Positions 7,521 to 63,994 of a DNA stretch of 64,000 nucleotides are shown one piece after another. The stretch lies in contig CM059187.1 of NCBI GenBank assembly GCA_030323885.1, positions 85,388,614 to 85,452,613 on the forward strand. The letters run 5' to 3'. The notes below the pieces were generated by a model, which worked only from the letters and a program-made list of their open reading frames with translations, had not been told where the DNA came from and made no database searches. A program made the translations under genes and the position numbers. The DNA comes from Branchipolynoe longqiensis (lineage: Eukaryota > Annelida > Polychaeta > Phyllodocida > Polynoidae). Each line of letters opens with the position of its first letter. Positions within the stretch are counted from its first letter, which is position 1.

Positions 7521-8140
7521 TCAACATGAACACACAAGTATATATACACACATAACTCCTAGCACTCGACTTGAACACACAAGTATATACACACACATAA
7601 CTCCTAGCAGTCAACATGAACACACAAGTATACATACACAACTCCTAGCATTCAACATGAACACAGAAGTATATATATATATACACATGTCTACATATAT
7701 ACACACACATCATTCCTAGCACTCAACATGAACACACAAGTATATATACACAGATAATTCCTAGCACTCAACATGAACACACGCGTATTTATACATATAC
7801 CTCTTGGCACTCAAAATGAACACACATATATGTATACTTATGTATACATACACCTCATAACACTCAACACGAATACACAAGTACATATGCACACATAACT
7901 CCTTGCACTCAACATGAACACACAAGTATATATACACACATACTTCCCAGCACTCAACATGAATACAACAATATGTATACGTATGTATATGTATAACTAA
8001 TATCACTCAACATGAACACACACATGTATAGTTATGTATAGACATAACTCCTAGCACTCAACATGAAAACACACATATGTATTATTATGTATATATAACT
8101 CCCCTCGGTCAACATGAATACACAGTTATATGTTTAGATA
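7521..8140 (+). repeat. Minisatellite, unit about 45 bp (left part of a split array)
   Basis: Monomers read CTCCTAGCACTCAACATGAA followed by an ACACAAGTATATATACACACATAA-like stretch, with about 13 copies. The first monomer is split by the 6913-7520 element. The array stops at the LINE's 5' end (~8142), and the same monomers resume at 15126 beyond its poly-A. Confidence 0.9.
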
Positions 8141-8349
8141 ACCATGGCGCCAGTGACACACGCAGTGTAGGAGGCTCCGTAAAAATAGTGTGGATTACTA
8201 ATGAAAAACAGTGCTAAGTACCAGGAAAGTGCACAAAGGCCTAGGCCTAAGCACTAACATCAACAGAAATGATGCATTAGTAGGATAATAAGGAGGAAAT
8301 CCTAACAAAAGAAAACGTACCGGATCGGACATTGATCGATCGGCGGGCG

Positions 8350-8905
8350 AAAATACAGTAACTTGGACGTTTCACGCGGATGTGAGACAGACACTGTAGA
8401 GACTGGATACGCACGTGTGCGATCCTATACATCAGTTTTTACAGCTAAGTACCACTCATTTATGGCATATTACTTTGCTTTTGCTATTGGTGTGTGTGTG
8501 GGTGTGATTTCTGATGTGTTAATAACTCTACAGTGACTTGGATGTTTCACGCGGATGTGACACTGACACTGTAGTGACTGGATACGCACGTGTGTGATGC
8601 TACACGTCAGTTTTCACAGCTAAGTACCACTCATTTATGGCATATTACCACTCATATACTTTGCTTTTGCTATTGATGTGTGTGTGTGGGTGTTATTTCT
8701 GATGTGTTAATAACTCTACAGTAACTTGGACGTTTCATGCGGATGTGACACTGACACTGTAGTGACTGGATACGCACGTGTGCGATGCTACACGTCAGTT
8801 TTCACAGCTAAGTACCACTCATTTATGGCATATTACCACCCATATACTCTGCTTTTGCTATTGGTGTGTGTGTGGGTGTGATTTCTAATGTGTTAATAAC
8901 TCTAA
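8350..8905 (+). promoter_or_regulatory. Three ~186-bp monomers in the LINE 5' UTR (possible internal promoter)
   Basis: ACAGTAACTTGGACGTTTCA (or a close variant) begins copies near 8352, 8530 and 8718. Each continues through ACTGGATACGCACGTGTG and AGCTAAGTACCACTCATTTA to AATAACTCTA. A partial fourth copy is at 9190-9272. Repeated 5' UTR units act as promoters in some mammalian L1 families; a promoter role here is inference by analogy. 8143-8320 is also partly repeated at 9290-9535. Confidence 0.6.
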
Positions 8906-9190
8906 AACCGCTGTGAGTTGAGCTGGTTGGTACCACCTCATATAGGCTTTAAACAAAGTTTGTCGGTGAATAATGCTATCATTTAGAATTTGGTTTAGCT
9001 TGACCAGAAACTATATGATTGTGAGTTCACAAAATTTGTGAGTGTCCATTGACACAGGGTTGATTGTGTGCTTTTGCATGTAAAAAGCGTTGGTTTGAAC
9101 AAAGGCAGACATTTCTTGCCGTGGCCGTGGGCGTGGCCTATGCTGCTGGAGTGGCGTGAGGCAACCACCAATCAATCAATCAATCAATCA
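8906..9190 (+). other. Sequence interrupting the LINE 5' UTR monomers, ending in (AATC)n
   Basis: This block replaces the start of a fourth monomer and ends in a CAATCAATCAATCAATCA run before monomer sequence resumes at AGCTAAGTACC. The short tandem tail suggests a small retroposon inserted in the 5' UTR, but I do not recognise its body. Confidence 0.35.
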
Positions 9191-9575
9191 AAGCTAAGTA
9201 CCTCTGATTTATGGTATATTAGCAATCATATACTTTGCTTTTGCTATTGATGCGTGTGTAGGTGTGATTTCTACATTGCCAGCATTGGCCTATTCTTAAC
9301 AGGAAAGTGCACAAAGGCATAGCCCTAAGCAATAAACCAACAAAAAAACGGAGGTTTTGGTGAACTTGATTGTTAGTCCTGGGTTTGACGATCGTGGAAA
9401 TACTTGACCTAAGCATAAGGATCGCCAGGATAGGCACAAAATATGCATTGTTAGGATAACATGGTGCCAATGACACACGCCGTGTAAGGAGGCTCCGTAA
9501 AATAGTGTGGATTACGGAAGAAATCCAAACAAAAGACATAACAACAAAGGGATAGAGAAAGCTCGACTGTCAAAA

Positions 9576-11079
9576 ATGGCGGCAGCCGCTATAGGGAACG
9601 ATCAGGTGATAAAAACCACTGACAAGATGACAATCCCCCAGAATGGTAACAACTTTGAAGAAAGAGTCATTGCTACGATACTCGGAGAAAATGGCTCAAA
9701 AATAATCAAGGACTGGATAAAAAAAGAAATGAGCCAGCTTCAGTCCAAACCGTCCATGGCGAAACTGGAGGAAGGCACCGCGACGGACACGGAGAACACG
9801 GAAAAGAACATAAAAACATCCAAGGACACAATCCAAAGCCTTAGAGATGAACTGAACAAACTACAAACGGCGTACAATAGTCTAACATTGGAATGTGCCT
9901 GGTACAAGGCAAACTACATGGGCAAAAAAAAATGTAACACAAAACGGAAAGGATGAAAGCAAAAGGGATGACAATGCAACAACGCAGGAAAAAAACGCCT
10001 CACTACAACCGGCAGAAGAGAACAAAAAGCTAAACATAATCGTGTATGGCATCCCGGAAAAAGAAGGCGAGTCAATAGAAAGCACAGTATCTAACATACT
10101 GGAAAAAGCGGAATGTTCCTTCGACTGGACAGTTGTAAAAAAAGCCTACAGACTGGGAAAAAAAAAAAAGAAAAGAACAACGAATGTAGAATCAAACAAA
10201 CAAAATGGCGGACAGGAAGAAAGGGTCAATGAAGACCAGGTGGGAGACCCCACTGGTGACACAAAAAACCCACACAAGGAACCCAGGCCGAGAGGGATAA
10301 AAATCCACCTTGAAAAAGAAAGCCAAAAACGGGAACTATTCAGAAATAAGCAAAAACTGACCAATGAACAAAAATCTAAGAACATCACACTCAGGCCCGA
10401 CAGGACTGAAAAGGAAATGCTAGATGAAAAAACAGTACAGCAAATGTACACACTGGCCAGAGAAAAAAATGAACAGACCACGGCCAGAATGAGAGGAAAA
10501 AACTTTGAAATTGAAGGAAAAGTATACAAACCATCGGAATTCGGGAACATAACTGTTGAAGGAATAAACCCAGAAGTGGCAGCAACAAGAATGCATAGCT
10601 GGGGAATTTCCTTCCAGGGACACAACTCCCCCTACAGCAATCTATACGAGTGCAAAATCCAAGGAAAAGATGGTAAAACCTACAGCTCAGCAGAGCAGTA
10701 CTACTGCTCGGTTATGGCTAAATACCACAATAAGTTCGATATCATGCGACTTATTGAGGCAACAAACAACCCATACACCATCAAGGCTATCGGGAAAAAA
10801 GTATGGAGATCGCCAGAGTGGATAAAAACCAATGAAAAAGTGATGGAGGACATTGTAATGGCCAAATTCACACAAAACGAAGACCTAAAAGAGAAAATCC
10901 TGAACGCACCTGGGAAAGCCTTCAGGGAATGCACGAGATGCCCCTACTGGGGCACAGGATTATTTCTTCAAGATGCAAAGGCAGGAGAAACGATCAAACC
11001 GGGATACAAAAACAAAATGGGTGAAATCCTCCAAAAAACAAGAGACAACATCCGGGCTAACTGCCAGAAATCAAGGTAA
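9576..11079 (+). pseudogene. LINE ORF1: coiled-coil, RRM-like domain and C-terminal NADAR domain, one frameshift
   Basis: ORF1 proteins bind element RNA and act as chaperones in the RNP. The start chosen is the ATG at 9576 (CAAAAATGGCGG context). The N-terminal part has heptad-like helices (SLRDELNKLQTAYNSL). After a frame change in a nine-A run at 9924-9932, the frame open to 11079 shows an RRM-like region (KKLNIIVYGIPE, later KKAYRLGKKKKK and RPRGIKIHLE; residues ~43-155 counted from codon 9895). Residues ~236-388 are a NADAR/YbiA-like domain: SPYSNLYECKI, YSSAEQYY, MAKFTQNEDL and YWGTGLF, then LQKTRDNI. This is a very unusual C-terminus for ORF1. Apart from the A-run shift the frame is clean for about 500 codons, suggesting recent constraint. 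Confidence is high for ORF1 identity and for the domain. Confidence 0.85.
10600..11058 (+). other. NADAR (DUF1768/YbiA-like) domain within LINE ORF1
   Basis: The domain keeps the family's order of signatures: an N-terminal SPYSN in place of the usual FSPF-type motif, a SAEQ motif (E at residue 267 of the frame starting 9895; the S-x-E-Q glutamate is the usual active-site residue), a central GKKVW and PEW pair, a KFTQNEDLKEKIL helix, a WGTG loop and a terminal LQKTRD helix. The usual acidic residue just before the WG loop is replaced (CPYWG). Known NADAR proteins cleave N-glycosidic bonds, either in riboflavin-pathway intermediates (YbiA/COG3236) or in ADP-ribosylated guanosine. What it does in a retrotransposon is unknown. 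Confidence 0.85.
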
Positions 11080-11616
11080 GTGCCAAAGTAAATAGAAAAA
11101 TAGAAACATTGTTAATAATAATAATAATAAAAATAATATAATAAAACAGGATAAATTAAACCCAACTGAAGCTTACGCCATACCTGCTACGAGGTGGGCG
11201 TAAACATAAACGGAGAAACTTTTACGACACGCCCATAGAATGAGCGAAATTTGTCGTTATGCTATAGAAATTAAGAAAATGTACCCAAACTGATCATGTT
11301 GAAATGGCTCTGTTAAGAACCATAACATAATTTGCCACAATAAATCCTTTAATAATTATTCAAAGTCTACCGAATCGGATTATTTTAATTGTAAAATCAA
11401 ATAATATCGGAATATATATATACTCAGCGGCCACCTTACTAATGCTGCACAGGAACAGTAATGTGACCGCATGCACTGGCGGCGCAAGCACCGACAGCAA
11501 ATTAAGGTAGGTGACCACATAAATGCAGGCTGAGTAGTTTTAAATACAAATCCCAATTCCACACTAAAAACCACCTCCAGCGCAAACAGCTATTTCGACC
11601 TGACCTCCGCACAAAT

Positions 11617-14432
11617 ATGGTGGAAGAGATTGATTGTAGACTAGGCAGAGGCATGCATTTTGCCCATCTAAACTGCCAAAGTGCCTACAACAAAATTGAC
11701 AGCATTAAACTACACTTAGATATCTGTAAATTTGATGTGTTAACACTATCAGAAACATGGTTTCATGAACTGCATAGTGACCAACTACTAGAAATTGGTG
11801 GGTACAGGCTTGTGAGAGAGGATAGAAAAACACTGACCAATGCACAAATACAAAAGAGGGGTGGAGGAGTTGCAATATACACCAAAAAATACCTAAACTC
11901 TGAACATAAGCCACTACAAGAATCAAACAGATCAGACACAAATATTGAACTAGTATGGACACTCATAAAAAACGAGAAACAAGCTAATCTAGCTGTAGGG
12001 AGTCTATATAGACCGCCAAATGGAAACATCGAAGACTTCATCGCACAACTGGAGACATCGCTAGAAAGTGTGTCGAAAGTGACGAAGGCAGAGATATTCT
12101 TACTAGGGGATTTCAACATAAACTACAAAACAAACAACAAAAACAAACACTCACTAGAGAACTTAATCAAAGGCAGAGGGTTTAAAGCAAAAAATGAGTG
12201 AGCTAACAAGGCTTGGAGAAAACAGCTCGATAATAGACCTAATAATAACAGACTCAAATCATACCCACACCTCAGGAACAAGAAACTGGGGCATTAGCGA
12301 TCATGAATTGATATATGTTACTAGAAAGAAAATAAAAACAAAAAACAAAACTACTCCCCGTATGGGTAGATCATACAAAAACTACACAAAAGAGGCACTA
12401 GAAACTCATCTGAAAGAGAAAATTAAATTGCCATTTCCAACTGAGATAGGTGTAAATGACCAATGGAACAATATCATTGGGGAAGTCCGACACTACCTGC
12501 CCAATAAAAAAACTTAAAATCAAAAACAACCAAGACCCATGGGTAACCCCAGAATTAATCAACCTAATTATGGACAAATATAAAACAGGCAAATTAGCCA
12601 AAGCAAGCGAGCGACTACTAGACATAGAAAACTACCACAAAGCAAGAAATCGTAGCCAGAAATCAGTGAGAAAAGCCAAAAGACGGTACATTGTCAAACA
12701 AGACCAGCAATGGGGAAAAAACTCACACAAATTCTGGAACAATGTGAAAATACTAATACCAAATAATAAAAATAAAGAATGGATTACCCTTTACAACAAA
12801 GAGGGGATGGAAATCAGCAACAACGATACTGCTAATATAATGAACAAACATTTTTCTACCATAGGCAATAAACTATCCAAACAGTTCAACACAAACTGGA
12901 CCACGAAAGCGCCACAATTAAACACAGACATTGGAGATTGCACAACCACAATAAAAGAGATAAATGAGCTCATAAAATCAATTGATTGCAACAAGCCTTC
13001 AGGCATTGAAAATACCTCAAGTATAGTATTGAAAGATGCATTCGGATGCATCCCAGATGTTATATGTGAGCTATACAACAAATCGTTCACAGAAGGTACT
13101 TATGTGGACTGCTGGAAACTAGCGAAAGTAACACCGCTCCACAAAGGAGGGGATAAACAGGTACTGGGAAACTATAGACCGATCTCCATACTCCCACTGC
13201 CTGGTAAACTAATGGAAAAAATAATGCATAGACATATTATGGACCATCTAAACGAACAGAAAATACTAAACAGTAAACAGGGCGGTTTCAGAAAATACCA
13301 CTCGACAATAAAAACAATTGCTAACTTAATAGCTGATATTGCAAACAGTATCAATAAAAAGAACCTAGTGGGTGCAGCATTCATAGACTTCAGCAAAGCG
13401 TTTGACACGGTGGACCACCCTATCCTAAGGAGCAAACTAACCCAAATGGGAATAACGGGAGTAACAGGAAAATGGCTAGCAAGCTATCTAGAAAACAGAA
13501 AGCAATGCACCACAGTAAATGGATCCATATCCAATGAGGAAAAGATAACTTGCGGAGTACCCCAAGGGTCAGTCCTGGGGCCACTTCTCTTCCTCATATA
13601 TATTAACGATCTAAACAACTGGCTAGAAATTGAAAACATCCAACTATATGCAGATGACACTGTGGTATATGCTGCAGGCAAAACAACCAAAGAAATAGAA
13701 ACAAAACTGAATCTAACACTAACAAAACTAATCGAGTGGTGCCAACTAAATAGGATAACCATAAACAACAGCAAGTCAAAAACAGTACTATTTGGTACCA
13801 GGCTAACAAGTAACGAGAAAATAAAGTGTCTTCTGGGAAACACCGAACTAGAACAAGTAGACAACTACCGATACCTGGGAGTGGATCTAGACAGACACCT
13901 AAATTATGACCTCTGCATAACAAATACTATCAAAAAAGTAAACCATAAAATATGGCTACTGGCTAAACTGAGATACTACATGACTGAAAGCATGGCAATT
14001 AAAATATATAAAGGCATGATCCTTCCCTACTTTGACTATGGTGATGTAGTATACATGGGAGGAAATACAAAACTATTAAACAAACTACAGGTGCTACAAA
14101 ATAGAGCCCTCAAAGTATGCCTTCAGGTGAACAAAAGATATCCCACAATCGAATTACACAAAAAATGCAATGCAACACTACTAACGAGTAGAAGGGAAAT
14201 GCACCTCAAAATACTGGCACACCATTACACCACAAAACCAGGCTACACAGCAACCCCCCGTAGGGACACCAGGCAAATGGCAGCCCCAGTGCTACTGACA
14301 GCAATAAGTAACACCAAAATTTATGAGAGAAGTGTACTGGCCATGGCGGCACATGCCTGGAATAATCAACCCACACAACAACGGGCAATCGAAAGCATGG
14401 ACCACTATAAAAGGTCCTTAAAGAAAACATAA
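11617..14432 (+). pseudogene. LINE ORF2: APE-type endonuclease and reverse transcriptase, two frameshifts
   Basis: Encodes the nicking endonuclease and RT used for target-primed reverse transcription. The start is ATG 11617 (MVEEIDCRLGRG). Endonuclease motifs follow: HLNCQSAYNKID, LTLSETWF, SLYRPPNG, LLGDFNINY and, after a frame change near 12183-12196, ISDHELIY. A second frame change near 12480-12500 leads to the linker (NNQDPWVTPELI) and RT: NYRPISILPLPGK, GGFRKYHST, AAFIDFSKAFDTVDH, GVPQGSVLGPLLF and YADD at 13647-13658. The C-terminal part (LQNRALKVCL, HAWNNQPTQQ) is complete and the frame ends at 14432. Both shifts look like single-base indels, one beside an A run. Usual length for CR1/L2-like ORF2 is about 900-1000 codons, matching the ~940 here. 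Confidence 0.93.
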
Positions 14433-15125
14433 TACACAACCACCGACTGAAGAAACAATATCTCACCTGATCGTGGGCGCAGTCACTGCTTGCTGTGTTC
14501 TGGCACAAAAAGCAAAAGTCCGGCTAGAAAAGATGGTAGATATTACAAATACGGAAACTAGCCCTACTAAGTACTAAGGAATTCAAAATGACTCAAGTAT
14601 AGTATTGAAAGTCCGTCTGGGTATGTGTACTGGGACAAACCAAAGCAGAACCAGGCGGGCCATGGTCATGCATCCGAATCACCCTGAAATACAAAATGGC
14701 TAACCATACAACACAGCCATCCCACCTCGTTGCAGTCCTGAAGGGTCCAGGGGTGTTCTGGCACACTGGTGTACTATCTAAGGACAGGGCATGGGTGAAA
14801 GGATGCTGTAACAAACCACAATGGGATGGGATCCTCTCCCACAGGCCTGTATGTCATCTGCATAGATGTACATAGTAGGTTAAGTTATCATATACAGGTT
14901 AGGAAAAAACTTGAAAAATAAAAAAAAACTAATATAGAAACTACTAACACCCAAAACCGCAAAGGTTGGCCCGAGAAAGATCAGGTAAAGACTCCTGAAT
15001 GCGGGACCAGACCAATCCAGTATCATAGCTGTCCAGCGTTGAAAACAAGCACCCTCACGGGAGCTTATACGTTATGGGCAGAATAAAAAACTTGTCACAA
15101 AAAAAAAAAATATATATATATATAT

Positions 15126-15310
15126 ATACACACATAGCTCCTAGCACTCAACATGAACACACAAATATATACACACACATAATTCCTAGCACTAAACATG
15201 AACACACAAGCATATATACAGATAACTCAACCCTAACACAAACATATATATATACTTCTATATATATGTATGTATTTATATATGTATATGTATAAGTGCT
15301 AGCAGTCAAC
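15126..15310 (+). repeat. Minisatellite, unit about 45 bp (right part of the split array)
   Basis: GCTCCTAGCACTCAACATGA at 15136 and ATTCCTAGCACTAAACATGA at 15181 are the same monomer family as 7521-8140. They begin directly after the LINE poly-A and (TA)n. About four diverged units. Confidence 0.85.
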
Positions 15311-15439
15311 ACCAGCACAACTGTATGGATACACATATAAATACACAAAACACAAGTGGCCAAGCACAAGTGAATACAAGCAATTTGGGGCATACACCTG
15401 AATACAAGCAATTTGGGGCAAACACGTAAATACAAGGTT

Positions 15440-21840: not shown

Positions 21841-23410
21841 CAATGCAAACTCAATGTCAGTGGACAATCTTCATACAGAAAAAGTGAAATATCTCTAAAC
21901 CCGCACAACTTAGAAACAAACCACTTGGCACACCAACAGATCAAATGTTTAAGAACCAGATTATATTAAATGTATAAGGTTAGGGTTATACATTTGTATT
22001 CATTTTGAATAAAACTAACGTTTTCCACTGCACATACCGGCAAACACAATGCATTGTCAATGGCCGTGAGCAATCTTCATACAGAAAAAGTTAAATATTT
22101 CTAAAAGCGCACAACGTAGAAACAAACCACTTGGCACACAAACAGATCAAATGTTTACCAACCAGATTATATTAAATCTAACATGAGTAAGAAATGCTTA
22201 GGACCGACCCCACATCCCTGCCCACATTAGTAGGAATTACGCAACTGTCTATATACTGGGCGCTGAAAACCATAGAAATACATGCTGAAAACGGTGTCAA
22301 CCGCAAAACAAAGATGTACGTGCAGTACAAAACTTTGATTTCATTCAAAATTAATAGAAATACATTACAATTTGGCATAAACATGGAAGTTTGGAATTAC
22401 AAACTAGTCTATTGACATACATATATAAATGCTTGGAGAATTATTTATTTATTATTATGCGATTCAACACGAGTATATTATTAACCAATCGCCGACACCG
22501 AATAACGTAAATATGGGCCTATGGGCTAAGAGCCTCCTTGGCAGCCTCCCCACAGAATATCAATGAGCCGTTTCCCTTTGGTGGATTTTGATTATTCAAC
22601 ATGAGTATACAAATGGCGGTGCCCATATAAGGCTATTTCCTTTTCTTTTGCTTGATTTTGGTTACCATTTCATTGTCCACCTCTATGAGTACGAGTATTG
22701 TTTATGTATATATGTATATATACAATTGTTAGTCATTAGCCTCACCCCTGGGTGGGTCGGTATAAGGTTAGGGTTCTGCATTTCTATTCATTTGGAATAA
22801 AACTGACGTTTTGCACTGTGCGTACCGGCAAACGCAATGCATTGTCAATGGCTGTGAGGAGGCTTCACACAGAAAAGGTGAAATGTCTCTAAAACCGCAC
22901 AACTCAGAAACAAACCGCTTGTCAAACAAACAGATAACATGTTTAACAACCACGGTATATTAAAGGTATAAGATTGGGGTTCTGCATTTCTATTAATTTT
23001 GAATAAAATTGACGTTTTGCACTGCGCGTATCGGGAAGCTCAGTGCATTGCCAATGGCCCTGAACTTAGAAACAAACCGCTTGGCACACAAACAGATAAC
23101 ATGTTTAACAAACAGGATATATTAAATGTATAAGATTAGGGTTCTGCATTTCTATTAATTTTGAATAAAATTGACGTTTTTCACTGCGTGTATCGGCAAA
23201 CTCAGTGCATTGTCAATGGCCGTGAGCAATCTTCCTACAGAAAAAGTGAAATATCTCTAAAAACACACCACCTAGAAACAAACTGCTAACATGCTTAGCA
23301 ACCAGATTATATTAAATGTATATGGTTAGGGCTCTGCATTTCTATTAATTTTGAATAAAACTGACGTTTTGCACTGCACATATCTGCAACCTCAATGGCA
23401 GTATGCCTTG
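21841..23410 (+). repeat. Satellite-like array, unit roughly 190 bp, about six copies, interrupted
   Basis: Units carry CAATGCATTGTCAATGGC, CTTCATACAGAAAAAGTGAA, AGAAACAAACCACTTGGCAC, CAGATTATATTAAATGTATA and TTTTGAATAAAACTGACGTT. Copies begin near 21841, 22037, 22815, 23035, 23200 and 23390. The block 22185-22763 interrupts the array and is unrelated. One copy near 23030-23110 lacks the middle part. Confidence 0.85.
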
Positions 23411-29637: not shown

Positions 29638-30023
29638 AGCAACGGCAGGCCATTTCTTCCTACCAATAGCAATTCCATAAAAAAATTGCCTTTCTTTTCA
29701 AAACCTAGAATAGGGAAGTTCAATTCCTCACGTAGCAAGAGGAGTGACGAAGGATAACATGGACCATTATGGTGAGAGCAGTGGAAGGTGATTTTAAGGA
29801 ATTGCATTGTCATAGTTTAATTACATTAATAGCAACGGCAGGCTATTTCTTCCTACCAATAGCAATTCCATAAAAAAATAGCTTTTCTTTTCAAAACCTA
29901 GAATAGGGAAGTTCACCTCCTCACGTAGCAAGAGGAGTGACGAAGGATAACATGGACCGTTATGGTGAGAGCAGTGGAAGGTGATTTTAAGGAATTGCAT
30001 TGTCGTAGCTTAATTACATTAAT
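29638..30023 (+). repeat. 193-bp tandem duplication
   Basis: 29638-29830 and 29831-30023 are the same sequence (AGCAACGGCAGGC, CACGTAGCAAGAGGAGTGAC, AAGGAATTGCATTGTC) with few changes. Confidence 0.93.
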
Positions 30024-33000
30024 AGGTTGTTGTCTTTTAAAGGGCCCTTCTTAGCATACAACGATAATGCATTGCTAATGATAATACGTCATTGATACTG
30101 ATTATCATTAATGTAGTCTTTCGTCAACATGCTTCAAAATAAAATGTTATAACGCCAGTATTGCTTCCAGTGGTACCTGCCTCCGGCGGCGACCCACTAT
30201 AATATTACTGTATGCTCGGCTGCATGAAGACCCAATAATACTACAAATTACAAAACTCTCCCCCTTCATTTCACCTGTGATGCAGTCATACTAAACCAAT
30301 ATTACCAACTCTGTAACTAGTACTAAGGAAGAAAGGCAGACAAGTCACAAAGATAGACAGTGAGGATGTTGTGCTTTATTGGCATCAACTCCTGCTCACC
30401 TATCAGTGACCTATCACCCTAACCCCTCACCTTCTAGCCACACAAGATATCATTACCTCTTTAGCGTGTATAGAGAAAGCAGTGCATACAGCCCATGGGA
30501 CAGGAGTCCTATGGCTGTGTGCACACTCAATTGGAATCTAGATGAATTTTGATAGCATCAGACAGAGTGTCTGGGGTCCTGCTGTAGAGTAGGTCTGTCT
30601 CACTCAAGAGCCAGGAGTAGAGTGATCCCTCTCCAGTGTGTCTGGAGAACTTTCTTGAATAAATAATTAGAATGAGACTTGTGTGGTCATGATTGGCCAA
30701 AAGGGGTCAGGTGACCAGACCTCCCACAGCCAGCCAATCAGACACTCCCCTACAGACTGGTCAGTGGAATGCCCTAATATGGGGAGTTGCCACCCAACCC
30801 AGCCTGCAGGGTGTGGCCCTAAGGAATGTGGTATGGCTGGTGTGCTTGGCCCTGGGTGTGGTAGGGACAGGTAGTTGTAGACAGTTACAAATATATATAT
30901 GTATGTATATACCAAAAATGTCCTTTTTCTCCAATTGCATTCTTTATGAATACATAGAGGAACATTTCATCAACCTTGAACTGCTTCTTATATAAGAACA
31001 TCTCTTCATTAACTTTAGGCATCATGTATGAACATATATCTCAAATAGCTTATATCATGTCATAACGTGAGTGGGGCACCATTGCTTTTAGATTACATAA
31101 CCTTCTCCCCCACTCTGTCGCCCAAGCCTAATAATGCTCTCTGCCAATATATAATTATTTACCGAAAATCCGTATATTTTTACACCACGTCCTGATATGA
31201 CCTTAAATGTTGTCAGGACTTAACACTCCAACAATCAACCAACCTTCAGCGACCCATCTCATCGGCGAACCCTGCCATGTGCAAACAAGTTTTTCTCTTT
31301 GGTGACACAGTGAAAGCAAAATCATTAATTAGTTGATCAATGAATTGTTTTGTGTCATAGCAATATTGATCACGATTTGGTAGGTTCAACCCCTGGCCGA
31401 ATCGAGCAAAGGACTTAAATATTGATACTTGTCGCTACCTAGCCTGGTGTTTGGCAATTAAATTTCCCCTTCGTTATTCAATGAAGGTACACAATACAAT
31501 CCAAACTTGTCCTTTGAAGACAAGTTATAATGTGCGTTGTTCAAGGCCATGTGTAATTGCACCTCCGAGATTTTCCTGTATCCATTCTAAATAATGTTAA
31601 TCTAATCTTGGTTTGTACAATCAAATCGAGATAAGTGTTTTGCTTTTGAAACTGTGCTGCTATCATCGAATTGTGCAGCTTTAAACATTGACTCTGTATT
31701 CCATTCAAATGCTTAATAAGTGAATGGATATCTAAGGTAGATATATATAATCAAATGAAGAAAAGTGTCTTTGTTTTGAAATTGCGATACTTTAAACAAT
31801 CAAGCTCCACCATGCCAACGACACCCACTCCCTTCTATGCCGATATTGTTTCCGCTTTGATCAGCCTACTCAGGCGCCTACAGTATATCAATAAGGTAAC
31901 CCATCAGACACAACACATATGAAACACTACTAAATCATTGTCCATTAATTTTCTTTTTAAAAGTTGCGCTTGTGTATGTCATGTATATGTTGCTACATGA
32001 GGAGTCAGGTAGGCTCATTTGTGGAAACGCTTCAGTAAAGGAGCAGCTCTCTGACCGAATGCATTGCTGAATTACAAATCGTATAGTACTCCTAGGAGGC
32101 GAAGCAGATGAGTCATTCTCTAAAACTGGGCACTACATATGTGCTTTCCATGTTCCGATGCGGGTAATTAATGATTTATTGTATGGATAGCACGTCATAT
32201 AATTATTTTGTGTATCTGTGTATTATGTATGTTATCATCACAACATATATGTGAACCATCCCACAAACTATATATTAAACAAATAATTGTATAAATTTGT
32301 GCTAACATGAACATTTAAAGAATTACACATCGATACCATGATTGCACCCAAACTATTATTTCAAGGTTTTTCTTGTAAGACATAAACAGGTTTAGTTAAC
32401 TGTAATCAATAACGTGTACTTTGCCTTTGTTGCCTATGGTACATGATGTTCTCGGTGCGTCTTTGATTCCCATGTTGGACGAGTGATATTAACATATCTT
32501 TCACTTTGTCAAAGATCTAAAGGAATAAGGGAAATACTGACATATGCACAGTGCATACCTTCATAGGAAAATGGATTCTGATATTATTTGGAATGTGTTT
32601 TGGTATTATCTGGAAGGTTTTCCCATTCGGGTCTCTTGTCACACTTTACTGCCCAGTTTCAGAGAATGACCCACTGTATATTATATCATTGGTGGCATAC
32701 TGGAATGTGAAATAACGCGCTCATGCAGGAAATCGTCGCGGTCAGTTTGATGGATAAGATTCCATTTTGAAGCACACATCGTAGAAAACTCTCACAGTTG
32801 GCCACGTCAAGTCTCTCCTCTTCCTCTCTCTTCTCACGCCCTTCTCTCTCTTCCTCTCTTCGTCAGTCTCTCTGCAGTCCCCAGATGAGTATGCCTACAC
32901 TCACTCAGTCCGCCTAGCAGGTTGGTTGAATGGAAGATGTGCGGGTTTCCATGGTGCCAAAGGCCTACTACATTAGTAATAGGTTCGCCGCCACGACCAG

Positions 33001-37422: not shown

Positions 37423-38548
37423 TTAGTGGGTTTTAACGGTTCTACCGTATCGTGAAACGTAAGGTAATTGTGTTTTTGTATGTTGTAAATTTCCTTCTAT
37501 TGCTACGCCCCTCTTATTATTTACTGTCGATTGGGGACACTTATAGATGAATTTCCGATTTCTTCTCAATGTATTACCGTGTTCATTTCGTATACTGTAA
37601 TCCCTCCTACTAGTGTTACTCGTGTCTACAATTTGACCTCTTTTCCAATCATTGTTTTGATCTCGGTACCTGACTTTGTCTCCTTTTTGTAATACCGGTT
37701 GTTCCTTGCCCGCCTTTTTGTCAAAATATTTCTTTTGTGTCGTTTGTCTCCCTTCCATTTCATTTAGCTTAGATGTTTGTACTGTAGGTTTGAGTTGATT
37801 GTTTAACACTGGAAGCCGAGACCGTAATCGTCTCGACATCAATAGCTGAGCTGGCGATGCCCCTATCCCTTCTAAAGTTGTGTTTCTATAATTCAACATG
37901 GCTATGTCAATGTCAGTATTATCTTTGAAGCACTTCTTGATCATGCGCTTGCATGTCTGGACATATCGTTCAGCTTGGCCGTTACTTTGGGCGTGCATAG
38001 GATTCGTAAAGACTGATTGGAATCCGAACAACTTAGCAAACTCTTGAAACTCACCACTCGAAAATTGGGGACCATTGTCTGACACAACATATCTTGGAAT
38101 CCCATACCGTGCAAAAGTTTGCTTTAGAACACTTATAACAGCTTTACTTGTCGTTGCGAACAATTCTATAATCTCAGGAAACTTAGAGTAATAGTCGACA
38201 ATGATTATGTAGTTTTTTTCATTAACATGGAACAAGTCTATCCCCACTTTGTGGAATGGCACATCTGGTATATCATGACTTATTAAAGGTTCTTTAGACG
38301 GCATGTTCCTAAATTGTTGGCAAACATTACACCGCAGGACAACGTTTTTCTAATGTGCTCATTAATCCTGGCCAAAACACTGTGTCCCGAGCCAATTGTT
38401 TACTTTTTACCACGCCCAAATGGGCCTCGTGTAGCCTCACCAACATCTCTTTATGCATGGATTTAGGTATAATGATCTGTTCACCTCTTAACATCAGATC
38501 ATCAGATGTGGTAATTTCATCCTTAAACCTAAAAAAATGCTTGAACAT
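37423..38548 (-). pseudogene. Gypsy integrase
   Basis: The region includes the zinc-binding segment (HEAHLGVVKSKQLARDTVFW, with the CNVCQQF pair in another frame after a shift near 38330), then the catalytic core. From the ATG at 38304: D23 in VGIDLF, D76 in VSDNGPQFSS and E112 in NGQAERYVQT, a DD35E spacing that is intact. A C-terminal basic region (KGDKVRYRDQNNDWKRG) follows, and the frame closes at 37423. The enzyme joins the cDNA to host DNA. The one frameshift separates the zinc finger from the core. Confidence 0.92.
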
Positions 38549-39990
38549 CAGTGTCTAGTAACTTGTTATTTATGGGCCAACCCTGTATTGTTAGGTCGCG
38601 TACCTTCATTAGTGTTTTGTCTAGTTTTGTTTGAATTATAATGTCCTGGATGATATCAGCATTACTATCAACGGCTGCCACAGAAATGTCTTTGTCGTAT
38701 AGGTCGTCCGGATTTACATTGGACGTATGGGCTCTTGACAAGGTGTCTGCAAAAAACAAATCCGTACCCTTCAAATATGTCACTACAATGTTATAATTTT
38801 GTAATCTCATCCGCATGCGTTGCATGCGGGCGGACAACGAGTGTATCGGTTTTAGCATTATGGCTACCAAAGGCTTGTGATCTGTTACGACAGTAATTTC
38901 ATTTCCATAAATGTAGTCATGAAATTTATGACATCCGAAACATATGGCTAAGAGCTCCTTTTCGATCACGGCATAACTCACTTGAGTTTTGTCTAAAGCT
39001 TTGGACGCCATAGCCACAGGCAAGTTGTTTTTGAAAAAGTGTTGCACCTAAACCAAACTTTGATGCGTCAACCTGTAGCACAATATGTTCTTTACCGTTA
39101 AAAAATTTCAAAACAGGCGCAGTCATCAATAAATGTTTCAGTTTCACAAAAGCTTCTTCATGTCTTTCTTCCCAATGCCAACATACGTTTTTCTTTAATA
39201 TTTCTCTTAATGGCTTAGTTATGTTTGCCATGTTTGGTATAAATTTATTTACATAACCAATCATGCCCAAAAACCGTTGCAACGCCGGTTTATCAGTGGG
39301 ACTGGGCATGTCCACAATGGCCTGGACCCTATCTTCGTTAGGTTTAATACCCTCTGAGGTAATTACATGACCTACGTAATTTACAGATTCTCTGCAAATT
39401 TTCGACTTCTTGGGGTTCAGTTTCAGGTTTACATGAGCTGCCCTTTGCAATACCGCCTCTAAGCGTGTATTGTGTTCTTCTATTGTACTCCCGTGTATCA
39501 GAATGTCGTCGGTCACGACATGAACTCCAGGTAATCCCATCAGGATATTATTCATTTCCTGTATGAAGATGTCCCCAGCTGTCTTAATGCCAAATGGGAG
39601 TCGAGTAAACCTAAATCTACCCCATGGGGTGTTGAAGGTACATAGCCTGGAACTGTTGTCGTCTAACTCAATTTGCCAGTACCCGCTATTTGCGTCCAAC
39701 ACCGAAAAATACCTGGCCCCATGTATAGTTGCAATTACTTCTTCCACTGTTCTAACTGGATAAGGGCCTCGTAGAATTGCTTTGTTTAAATTTGTGGGAT
39801 CTAGACAAATTCTTAATTTATTAGGCTTACGTACAATAGTCATTGAATTCACCCAAGGAGTAGGCTCATCCTGTTTGACTATGACCCCTAACTCTAACAT
39901 GCGTTTTAATTCTTTCTTTACATCATCAATAATTGCCAGTGGGATTCGACGTGGAGGGTCAATGACAGGAATGATACTTTCATCAATGTA
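38529..39990 (-). pseudogene. Gypsy reverse transcriptase and RNase H
   Basis: RT reads YPVRTVEEVI, YFSVLDANSGYWQIEL, FTRLPFGIKTAGDIF and VVTDDILIHG (the DD pair intact at residues 131-132 of the frame beginning 39900; the usual Y/F before it is T). It continues with YVGHVITSEGIKPN and LQRFLGMIGYVNKF. After a frameshift near 39045 the RNase H part follows (YAVIEKELLAICFGCHKFHD, VVTDHKPLV, LFFADTLSRA). Upstream, a frame change near 39985 links it to the protease (IPVIDPPRRIP). It would be a typical gypsy polymerase but for these shifts. Confidence 0.93.
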
Positions 39991-44176: not shown

Positions 44177-46420
44177 ATGCTGTTGACTTGTACAGCTGCA
44201 GTGCAGTATTCTAACTTACATATGTCCTTATTTTTCTGAATGTGCTCATTTTTAGTGCCAGTGTTTGGTTAAGTCTTGCCAACTGTTGGGTACCACTTAG
44301 AGTCACATCGAGAGTTGTGCCTTGGTACTTATAGGAGTTCACCTCATGGAACACTAAGCCACCCATCTGCAGTTGTATTGGCCGGGCCCTCACCTTCCTG
44401 GATTTGGTTACATCGATTATGTACTCAGTTTTAGTGTTGTTTAATGTTAGTTTATTCTCATGGCACCATGTATTCACTACCTCTGGCACCATTCCAGCCT
44501 CAGCTGCGGCTATGCCAAGGTCATTGTTATGTATTGTTAGTGATGTATAATGGGCAAATAATGTGAAAGATGCTTTGTTGGAAACTAGAGGTAGGTCATT
44601 TATAAATATTAGAATGACTAGGGGTCCTAGAGTGGAACCCTGTGGAACTTCTGTTTTTAATTCTTGGATGGTCGAATTGGTATCATTTAGTTTTGTGTAT
44701 TGTTTTCTATTGCTGAGGTAATTTGTGAGGAAGCTATGTGCTCTATTGCCTAGCCCAGCTCGTTCTATTTTATGCATGAGGATTTTGTAGTTGATTGTAT
44801 CTTGAAATCAAGGATGACTGCGATAATAAGATCACCCTGTCTATGTTTGACAGAAATTCATCCAGTAGAGAGGCCAGTGCCCCAGTAGTGGACTTATTTT
44901 TCCTGAAGCAGTTTTGCTGGTAGGTCAAATCGTTAGAGGACTCAAGGACTGTTTTAATTTGGTCATGTATTATTTGTTCTATGATCTTGCCAGGCAGCGG
45001 GAGGATCGATATTGGCATAGTTCGCTGTAGGTTTGTGGGATGTTGACTTTAGGTATGGGCATCACTGTGGCTACTTTCCAGTCACCAGGGACGATGCCTG
45101 TGCTGATTATTAGGTTATATAAATGTGTCAATTCTGCACTCAGTGTTGTGATCACGCTTTTATCAAAGTGGTACTGATGTCCTTCATTTGTAGATCGATA
45201 ATTTGTAAATCGATAGTTTGTTAGTTCTATCAAGGATTTTATCCTGGGTGATTTCCAGGAGGTCATACCTTTCTTTTCTTAGTTTGGCCTGGAAGGTTTT
45301 GTGTTGATCATCTTTCTGTTTGAACTTATTGGTTAGTTTCACACCTATTTTTATGAAATAGTTATTGATTTCCTCTGCTATTAATTCATCTGGGATTTTA
45401 ATACCAGTCTCTTGATTTGGAAGGTCACTGATTCTTCTCTTGTTTTTAGGTTTGACTTTGTTTATTTCATACCAAGATTTTCTGGCATTCTGTTTATAAT
45501 TGTCTATTTGGACTTGATAATACCTTGCTTTGGCTTTCCTTACTTCACTCCTACCCTTTCCGACCATTCATTTAGCTATGACTTCATCCCCTGGATCTTT
45601 TGTTTTCTCAAACTTTTGGATAAAGTAATCTCTATCCTTTTGAAGCTCTAGTAGTTTGTCATTAAGGTAACCGCCCATGGTGATTCTTGTGGTGATCTGC
45701 GTATGGGGACAGTGCGTGTCAGCTGCATTAGTGATTGTTGTGTTTAGGATATCCCAACATAGGTTGGGGTTCCTCATATCCAGATATTTGTTACTGTTTA
45801 TTTCTTTGAGTGTGCCAGCCAATTCATTAAAATTGCAGTTCCTATAAGAGCATGCCCCAGTGGGTGGCCATTCTTTTGTCATTTCATATTTTTTTCTTCA
45901 TTATGAATATTGGTTTGTGGTCGCTTATGTTATAGTCAAGGACTCCAGGCTTTGTACAATGTTTAATATTGGTAGGTGCCAGGTCTGTTGTTTTATTAAT
46001 GGTTTTGGTTACCCTGGCTGGTGGCTGGATCATTTGTTGCAACTCATGTATAACTTCAAATTGCTTTATTATCCCTTTCATCATAGGCCTCTTACTATTA
46101 TAGTCTTCATTGAAATCACCGATGAGGAGTATCTCATATTGATCAATTTTACCTATATTATTCAAAGAGTAAGTTATTTGCCCAATTCCTTCATTTAGGT
46201 TTCCATTTGGGGGTCTATATACGTTGACGATAAGTATTAGTTTTGTAAATTGGTAGCCTGGTATAGTTGAGAGTCTGACTTCAACTGTTCTATTGAGCCT
46301 TGTTTCTGGTATAGTGAAGACATCAAACCAGACCTGGGTAGGTCGGCTCTTAGCTGGTTGTTCTTATGTGTCAGGTTACATACATTTAGGTGGCCAATCT
46401 TTAGTCCCTACAGTCCCTTC
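44177..46420 (-). pseudogene. LINE ORF2 (endonuclease and RT), 5' part of the LINE split by the YR element
   Basis: A CR1/L2-like ORF2 read on the minus strand. Endonuclease pieces: LKIGHLNVCNLTHKNNQLRA (~46400), FDVFTIPETRLN, YRPPNGNL, LLIGDFNEDY and ISDHKPIFI. The middle of the endonuclease (between GYQFTK and LILIVNVYRPP, near 46245) is deleted. RT pieces: PISILPLPGKIIEQIIHDQI, NCFRKNKSTTGALASLLDEF, EVPQGSTLGPLVILIFINDL. The catalytic YADD-type motif is replaced by FAHYT, so both aspartates are lost. Several frameshifts (near 45570, 45190, 45000, 44775) confirm a dead copy, older than the one at 8142-15110. The C-terminus is at 35498-35917. Confidence 0.9.
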
Positions 46421-62635: not shown

Positions 62636-63994
62636 TCAAAATTCTAACACGCTCATGTCTATTTTCACAGTAATCTGCCTCAGATTCAAGCTATGGCACA
62701 ACCCTTCAGCCTTCGCCCTACTTAGCTCGGAATGGGGAGCCCTACTCAGTGCATCGGCCAGAACCAGTTCCTCCCCTGCTTTATGTGCAATTTCAAGTTC
62801 ACAGTTTAATTTAGCCGCTATAAGCCAGATCTGGGGTGCGCATGCACAGAGCACCTTGTCCCTACCTCGCCTCGATTCCAACACTTGCTGCGATGCAACA
62901 TTATCAGTATTTACCCTGATGAGAAACTCGTGCGGGTTCGGAGGAAGTAGATATTTTAATGCATGAACGAGGTTAAGGGCCTCTAAATTATATATAGGTA
63001 ATGAACTGGACTGTAGTTCTTCGGAATATTCTGCAATGTAGAAACTATCAGGTGAAAAGGCACCACCTGCTTTCAGGGTCGAGTCGCACTCGATCAGCCA
63101 GACTTGCCTTGGTTTATTAGGGATCAACTGCAGGTCATTGTACGACGCCGCAAACTTCTGAAACCACTCCAGATCTAATAACAGATCCGTATCAAATTTG
63201 TGCTGACCGACATAAGGCGAAGCTCGAAGAGCCTCCAATACTCGATTCGAGAACCTTGTGGCTGGCTTAATACACTTTGCTAGGTGTTGAAGCTTGCCAG
63301 CCAGACTCTGAATCTGCTTCCTTGATGCTGTAGATTTCTTTCCCCAACCCTGGCATTCATCAAGTACATCTTTTATCTTTTGGTGTGGAAGCGTAACTGT
63401 CATGGCCACAGAATTAATCACAAAGCCCAACCAGACTATTTCAGTAGCAGGGGCAGAGCATTTTTCAAGAGCTAAAGCCAAACCTAACTTCACTGTCAGC
63501 TCATTAAACCGACTATATGCCTCCTCTGCTTTCTTCCTAGTTCCTTCCACCCCCACAAAGTCGTCGAGATAGCACAACGCAAAGTACCCCTCTTGTCTGA
63601 GGAGCCAGACAATCGCACAAGTAGTTTGTGCACAGGCGAGTGCCGACATCCGGCACCCAAAAGGCAGAGCTATGTCAATATAGAATTTCCCATTAATTGA
63701 AATCCCTAACATCGGAGTCGACCACGGGCAGACCCTGAGCTGCCTATAGGCTCTAGCTAAATCAGCGCCCCACATCCAGGCATTAGGGCCTAATTTAGTC
63801 AGTCTTTCCGACAGTGTAGACACTGAAGGCAATGTGAAGTTGAAGGGGGCGCCCAAGTAGTACCCTTTTACGATGCCAGCATTTACACTCCTACTTGGAG
63901 GGAAACTTAAGTCAATTATAATTCTTTTATTCGTCGAATTCTTTTTAGGTCCTGTCATCATGGGGCTAATCTGACACCACGGTCGATATGGCAA
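62636..63994 (-). CDS. Reverse transcriptase and RNase H of the second YR retroelement
   Basis: An intact 452-codon frame, probably continuing past the window edge. RT motifs: KRIIIDLSFPPSRSVNAG, WGADLARAYRQL (D78), ALPFGCRMSALACAQ and CYLDDFVGV (YLDD at 142-145), then EKCSAPATEIVWLGF. RNase H: LIECDSTLKAGGAF (D304), YNLEALNLV (E338), VNTDNVASQQVL (D364) and VLADALSRA (D414), all four acidic residues present. It closes at 62636, about 35 bp before the recombinase core-binding segment. The clean frame contrasts with the broken recombinase. Confidence 0.9.
   Translation of the reverse strand: MPYRPWCQISPMMTGPKKNSTNKRIIIDLSFPPSRSVNAGIVKGYYLGAPFNFTLPSVSTLSERLTKLGPNAWMWGADLARAYRQLRVCPWSTPMLGISINGKFYIDIALPFGCRMSALACAQTTCAIVWLLRQEGYFALCYLDDFVGVEGTRKKAEEAYSRFNELTVKLGLALALEKCSAPATEIVWLGFVINSVAMTVTLPHQKIKDVLDECQGWGKKSTASRKQIQSLAGKLQHLAKCIKPATRFSNRVLEALRASPYVGQHKFDTDLLLDLEWFQKFAASYNDLQLIPNKPRQVWLIECDSTLKAGGAFSPDSFYIAEYSEELQSSSLPIYNLEALNLVHALKYLLPPNPHEFLIRVNTDNVASQQVLESRRGRDKVLCACAPQIWLIAAKLNCELEIAHKAGEELVLADALSRAPHSELSRAKAEGLCHSLNLRQITVKIDMSVLEF

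Follow-up and report, generated by a model that had tools for sequence, protein, structure and literature searches.

This study focused on a retrotransposon of the long interspersed element (LINE) type that lies in a 64,000-nucleotide stretch of the genome of the polynoid annelid Branchipolynoe longqiensis (assembly GCA_030323885.1, contig CM059187.1, forward-strand positions 85,388,614 to 85,452,613; the whole stretch is called the window, and all coordinates refer to it). The protein of its first open reading frame (ORF1) ends in a NADAR domain, and the fusion of this domain to the ORF1 C-terminus of a LINE with an APE-type endonuclease and a reverse transcriptase (RT) is confirmed. The domain has been kept by purifying selection as strictly as the RNA-binding parts of the protein, in two subfamilies of the element, and the NADAR-bearing ORF1 is in this evolutionary sense functional.

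The NADAR domain of ORF1

The domain occupies 10591..11076 (+), corresponding to ORF1 residues 233-394. It matched the NADAR profile PF08719 with an E-value of 9.3e-21 (75.2 bits, against a cut-off of 35.1) and its modelled fold was of the YbiA type, which bears out the original prediction, made from the sequence alone, of a NADAR domain at the C-terminus of a LINE ORF1. The preceding part of the protein consists of a predicted RNA recognition motif (RRM) followed by an L1-type C-terminal domain (CTD), as is typical of Type II (L1-type) ORF1 proteins; together they span 10024..10566 (+), with the RRM in two parts (residues 44-89 and 131-171) separated by a linker, and the CTD at residues 172-224. 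The N-terminal part, 9576..9935 (+), is coiled-coil-like, although its coil-type Pfam matches were all below threshold; it lies in the frame 9507-9956, is cut off from the remainder of ORF1 by a frame break in an A-run, and its start was placed where the frames of about 500 codons begin in sibling copies.

Sibling copies and selection

A protein search of the assembly (1.85 Gb, 1914 contigs) returned at least 106 match rows to ORF1, many of them free of internal stops and lying within frames of about 500 codons; the figure is a lower bound, since 105 of 3586 candidates were scored. Of 20 copies for which 8 kb each was fetched, 19 had an ORF2 of this type, intact or fragmented, downstream on the same strand and one had none; in at least one of the 20, both frames were open. 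Relatives with 35-60% identity and an equal domain order were also found in other data sets. Narrow-pattern scans of viral contigs (for ORF1 and for P0012, a relative of ORF2) and of genome contigs (for ORF1) confirmed no relative, which is not proof of absence. In some sibling rows the match to the window frame begins at residue 1, so these copies may share the frame break of the window copy in an A-run near 9930. Six such rows, with 74-83% identity, also have stops of the same types (TAG once or twice, TAA four times).

The ratio of nonsynonymous to synonymous substitution rates (dN/dS) between subfamilies A and B was 0.106 for the NADAR domain, as against 0.103 for the RRM, 0.105 for the CTD and 0.653 for the linker inside the RRM (27 A and 13 B copies giving 351 pairs, which are not independent; scripted Nei-Gojobori method). 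The check across the domain that had been proposed points to purifying selection. Within subfamilies the NADAR values were higher (0.348 in A and 0.195 in B), as expected because the copies are decaying. In an alignment of nine member proteins, the NADAR domain was the best conserved part, with a mean pairwise identity of 0.56, followed by the CTD (0.47), the RRM (0.44) and the linker (0.19). Residues 240-383 were covered by 95 genomic copies, and 84 of these had no stop there.

The window copy is damaged in both ORFs (in ORF1 near 9930, in ORF2 near 12190 and 12500), and might for this reason be taken for a chance read-through or for a fusion present in one copy only, next to a LINE that is dead. 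This explanation was refuted by the number of genomic copies, the linkage of siblings to ORF2, purifying selection in two subfamilies and the relatives with the same domain order, and is hardly credible.

Active site of the LINE NADAR domains

Ten LINE NADARs (that of the window and P0002-P0010) were aligned with 83 distinct canonical rows, 18 of which had not been fetched by pattern and were used as controls. In the structure 8bau, the distal ribose is reported to be held by E43 and E125, and the diphosphate by K50, R79, W89, R93, W133 and, via water, D130 (PMC11543638). Equivalents of E43, at the start of the first core helix, and of E125, in the last strand, were kept in all ten LINE domains and in all canonical rows, the second glutamate being a mark of the YbiA subfamily. 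The equivalents of W89, W133 and K75 were likewise kept in 10/10 LINE NADARs, while that of R79 was Lys in eight of the ten (Arg in 74 and Lys in 9 of the 83 canonical rows). At the K50 site, seven residues after the first glutamate (E+7), all ten LINE domains have Met, in contrast to Lys in 83/83 canonical rows, including every one of the 18 controls. At the D130 site, three residues before the tryptophan (W-3), all ten have Cys-Pro in a loop one residue shorter and lack an acidic residue, whereas the controls have Asp (17) or Glu (1), with Tyr replacing the Trp in four. P0011 (a Saccostrea cucullata record), the sole animal host NADAR among the controls, is canonical at both sites. A further difference is at E+11, which is His in 10/10 LINE NADARs and Phe in 82/83 canonical rows. 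These substitutions, the shortened loop and the fusion to an RRM and CTD separate the LINE domain from YbiA and the P. nicotianae NADAR (2b3w, 8bau). Residues fixed only in the LINE domains (10/10 each) are Q241, H243, H278 and C349-P350, and a candidate zinc site may be formed by H243, C253, H278 and C349, all invariant in the ten. With E43 and E125 kept and K50 and D130 changed, the ribose-handling half of the site has been retained and the diphosphate-handling half rebuilt, alike in the families seen.

The genomic copies showed the same pattern when residues were counted in 99 of the 106 rows. The key codons of the window copy, all on the + strand, are E267 (10693-10695), M274 (10714-10716), E345 (10927-10929), C349 (10939-10941) and W352 (10948-10950). 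E267 was kept in 97 copies, E345 in 96, W352 in 95 and K297 in 98; position 274 was Met in 97, Leu in one and Lys in one, and position 349 was Cys in 95 and Asp in one. The active-site glutamate, the loss of which in most copies had been named as grounds for abandoning the prediction, has thus been retained, and the other two such grounds (no profile or fold match, and absence from all siblings) were not found either.

A maximum likelihood tree of 50 of the 93 sequences placed the ten LINE NADARs in one clade (support 100/99) on a branch of length 2.55. No sister group is claimed, because the plasmid NADAR that meets the clade (L097, branch 1.92) does so with weak support (83/58), in a join flagged for its long branches.

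Predicted function of the domain

The interpretation we tentatively favor, at a probability of roughly 0.45, is that the LINE NADAR is a predicted ribosyl N-glycosidase acting on nucleic acid within the ribonucleoprotein particle (RNP) of the element itself, with a pocket that likely lacks the canonical grip on ADP-ribose. By homology with L1 ORF1p, the protein would coat the element RNA, placing the domain beside that RNA or the new cDNA, where it would act catalytically by cutting a ribosyl linkage. The substrate would be a ribosyl-linked base mark or a damage product, the removal of which would aid reverse transcription or let the element evade a host response. Since both diphosphate-holding residues, the lysine and the acidic one, are lost, it is argued that this substrate is not that of DarT1-type NADARs.

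Several points weigh against this interpretation. A domain that has lost both the E+7 lysine and the W-3 acidic residue may have lost catalysis with them, and the kept glutamate is no proof of activity, because the E88A mutant of the E. coli C7 NADAR is described as having only a minor effect in vitro (PMC11543638). In SNA-3, mutation of the homologues of residues essential in YbiA, an Asp included, abolished function (PMC9303266); by our own reading, this Asp would match the W-3 site. The long branch of the LINE clade could reflect a new function just as readily as a new substrate.

The main rival holds that the domain is no longer an enzyme but a ligand-binding, nucleic-acid-binding or assembly module of ORF1p, with the pocket reused for a nucleotide end or for RNA. 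The losses at E+7 and W-3 in 10/10 LINE NADARs agree with this, the LINE-only fixed residues suggest a new surface or pocket, and L1-type ORF1p is reported to bind nucleic acid (PMC4120745). A scaffold would not, however, need the ribose-contacting glutamate pair and the Trp of the WG.G motif, which are kept in 95-97 of the 99 copies, as are most other fixed sites, and this explanation appears possible but doubtful.

The original prediction had proposed that the domain might erase or bind ADP-ribose. A canonical ADP-ribosyl hydrolase, removing ADP-ribose made by host PARP or ART enzymes from nucleic acid or protein of the element, would be in line with several published observations: guanine-ADP-ribose is hydrolysed by NADARs (PMC11543638, PMC11125620), PARP1 and PARP2 are reviewed as acting at L1 integration sites (PMC8535693), and NADARs occur in annelid and bivalve picornaviruses, and those of RNA viruses have been argued to strip host ADP-ribose marks (PMC9503650). 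The catalytic glutamate, kept in 97/99 copies, also suits this role, while the copies with Lys at 274 and Asp at 349, one of each, are so few that they signify no more than decay. Speaking against this role, the diphosphate contacts are lost in 10/10 LINE domains and both are present in 18/18 controls, even though the glutamate pair for the distal ribose is kept. The C7 equivalent of K50 (K95) is reported as essential for guanine-ADP-ribose hydrolysis (PMC11543638). Moreover, as PARP is described as helping L1 integration (PMC8535693), the element would have no obvious gain from erasing the mark. The lost contacts weaken the ADP-ribose role, which we consider quite improbable, although K95R of the C7 enzyme still works in vitro (PMC11543638) and pockets can be rebuilt. 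The prediction as a whole therefore stood in its fusion, its siblings and its conserved glutamate, while the role in ADP-ribose removal or binding was unsupported as written.

A more specific form of the N-glycosidase interpretation was also considered, in which a captured NADAR enzyme has become a dedicated part of ORF1 and serves in counter-defence, stripping from the RNA or cDNA of the retrotransposon a ribosyl or ADP-ribosyl-derived mark that the host has made. Its putative LINE-only active site would comprise the two kept ribose-gripping glutamates, Met and Cys-Pro in place of the diphosphate grip, and the fixed His. This scenario is rather unlikely.

Element structure and ORF2

The LINE insertion is about 7.0 kb long, 8125..15118 (+), and sits within a minisatellite array with a unit of about 45 bp, recognized in the left flank (7521..8124) from the tandem repeat table and an array match, and again in the right flank (15119..15340). 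When the flanks were joined by script (8061-8124 plus 15119-15225) and compared with the left array (7521-8060), the best of the 42 joints tried gave 118 aligned columns with 89.8% identity and no gaps; as just 16 of these columns lie left of the joint, the borders are accurate to perhaps 15 bases. The + strand is rich in A between about 9300 and 15000. The 5' untranslated region (UTR), 8125..9575 (+), is taken to reach from the left border up to the ATG at 9576. It contains 188-bp tandem repeats at 8354-8904 and two displaced repeats that match blocks near its 5' end (8131-8206 with 9449-9523, and 8219-8269 with 9297-9346), and in this resembles the promoter monomers of some LINEs. The 3' UTR, 14433..15118 (+), was delimited by sequence and the right border, and ends in an A-rich/TA-rich tail.

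The ORF1 stop and the spacer to ORF2 occupy 11077..11616 (+), the spacer being 537 bp (11080-11616). The distance from the stop to the endonuclease motif, readable in 16 of 21 sequences, was 541-564 in subfamily A (ten sequences, one of them that of the window) and 406-416 in subfamily B (six sequences). An origin of ORF1 and ORF2 from two adjacent elements was ruled out by the flank joint, the presence of ORF2 in 19/20 copies and these distances. The stop overlaps a consensus splice-donor-like AGGTAAGT (11074-11081); its position could be established in 19 of the 21 sequences, and the overlap was present in 18 of these. By eye, the spacer holds a 54-nt exon-like block with an acceptor CAG and a donor AAG|GTAGGTGA, conserved in both subfamilies and 3 nt shorter in one sequence, and in subfamily A, splicing to an acceptor near 11520 would bring ORF2 into frame with ORF1. 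A spliced ORF1-ORF2 fusion was rejected as unproven, the in-frame acceptor being seen only in A and not in B.

ORF2 consists of an APE-type endonuclease part, 11617..12201 (+), with the frame broken near its end, and an RT part, 12456..14432 (+), an arrangement that identifies an APE-type LINE. The endonuclease matched PF03372 above its cut-off (E 8.7e-8) and PF14529 below its cut-off (E 5.9e-5), and the RT matched PF00078 above its cut-off (E 6.4e-38). P0012, an open relative of 972 aa that is 88% identical to the RT part, scored 52 bits with phmmer to chains named L1 ORF2 and 33-40 bits to chains named R2, the two kinds of reference compared, a difference not decisive for the clade. The RT motifs of the window may be Jockey/CR1/L2-like rather than L1/Tx1-like; a literature search for the RT motif of ORF2 gave no match. 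The pairing of a Type II ORF1 with a non-L1 RT would not be odd, because Type II ORF1s are reported from the L1, CR1, L2 and R1 clades and horizontal acquisition of ORF1 has been speculated (PMC4120745).

Other features of the window

Fragments of a long terminal repeat (LTR) type retroelement lie at 37423-39900 (-), with an integrase core (PF00665), RT (PF00078) and RNase H (PF17919) in broken frames. An RT-like frame of 452 aa at 62639-63994 (-) (PF00078, E 6.1e-11) looks DIRS-like, and a second LINE-like RT fragment at 44214-44777 (-) matched PF00078 below the curated cut-off (E 4.4e-6). Two near-perfect two-copy tandem repeats were present at 22901-23225 (162 bp) and 29638-30025 (193 bp). 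Scans of the window with Rfam (gathering threshold) and for tRNAs gave no match.

Relation to known systems and significance

This kind of fusion has been glimpsed in print before, but the details given here are new. Two sentences of a published study mention, for several Tx1 LINEs of Crassostrea gigas from Repbase, divergent NADAR matches in ORF1 with an unclear role (PMC12477816); the NADAR lies in ORF1 as it does here, and these LINEs may or may not share the lineage of the present element. The same source describes NADARs in Ectocarpus Gypsy LTR elements, and it suggests a role in processing RNA intermediates (PMC12477816); the Gypsy elements are also retrotransposons with an acquired NADAR, whereas here the domain ends a LINE ORF1. 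No other papers on NADAR in LINEs were among the matches listed in open-licence literature searches. A survey of the ORF1s of 448 Jockey-superfamily elements lists RRM, CCHC, CTD, PHD, esterase, coiled coil and zinc finger/leucine zipper, and the words NADAR, YbiA and ADP-ribos are absent from its main text (PMC4120745). The RRM and CTD fold is shared with the Type II proteins described there (coiled coil-RRM-CTD, transposase 22; L1, CR1, L2, R1), but the NADAR is an additional C-terminal domain. SNA-3, a trans-splicing protein with three NADAR domains, is a further animal case tied to RNA metabolism, although it is a nematode-specific host protein and not part of a retrotransposon (PMC9303266).

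The roles of NADARs in animals are largely open, and a LINE with a selected NADAR and many open ORF1 copies is a tractable system, in which the effect of losing any one active-site residue on retrotransposition can be scored. The catalytic and non-catalytic readings can be told apart by means of the LINE-only signature. A catalytic domain would point to a mark of the ribosyl type on the nucleic acid of retrotransposons in this host, and counter-defence, if true, would be evidence for such a modification; if it is not catalytic, a NADAR pocket has been turned into an RNP module.
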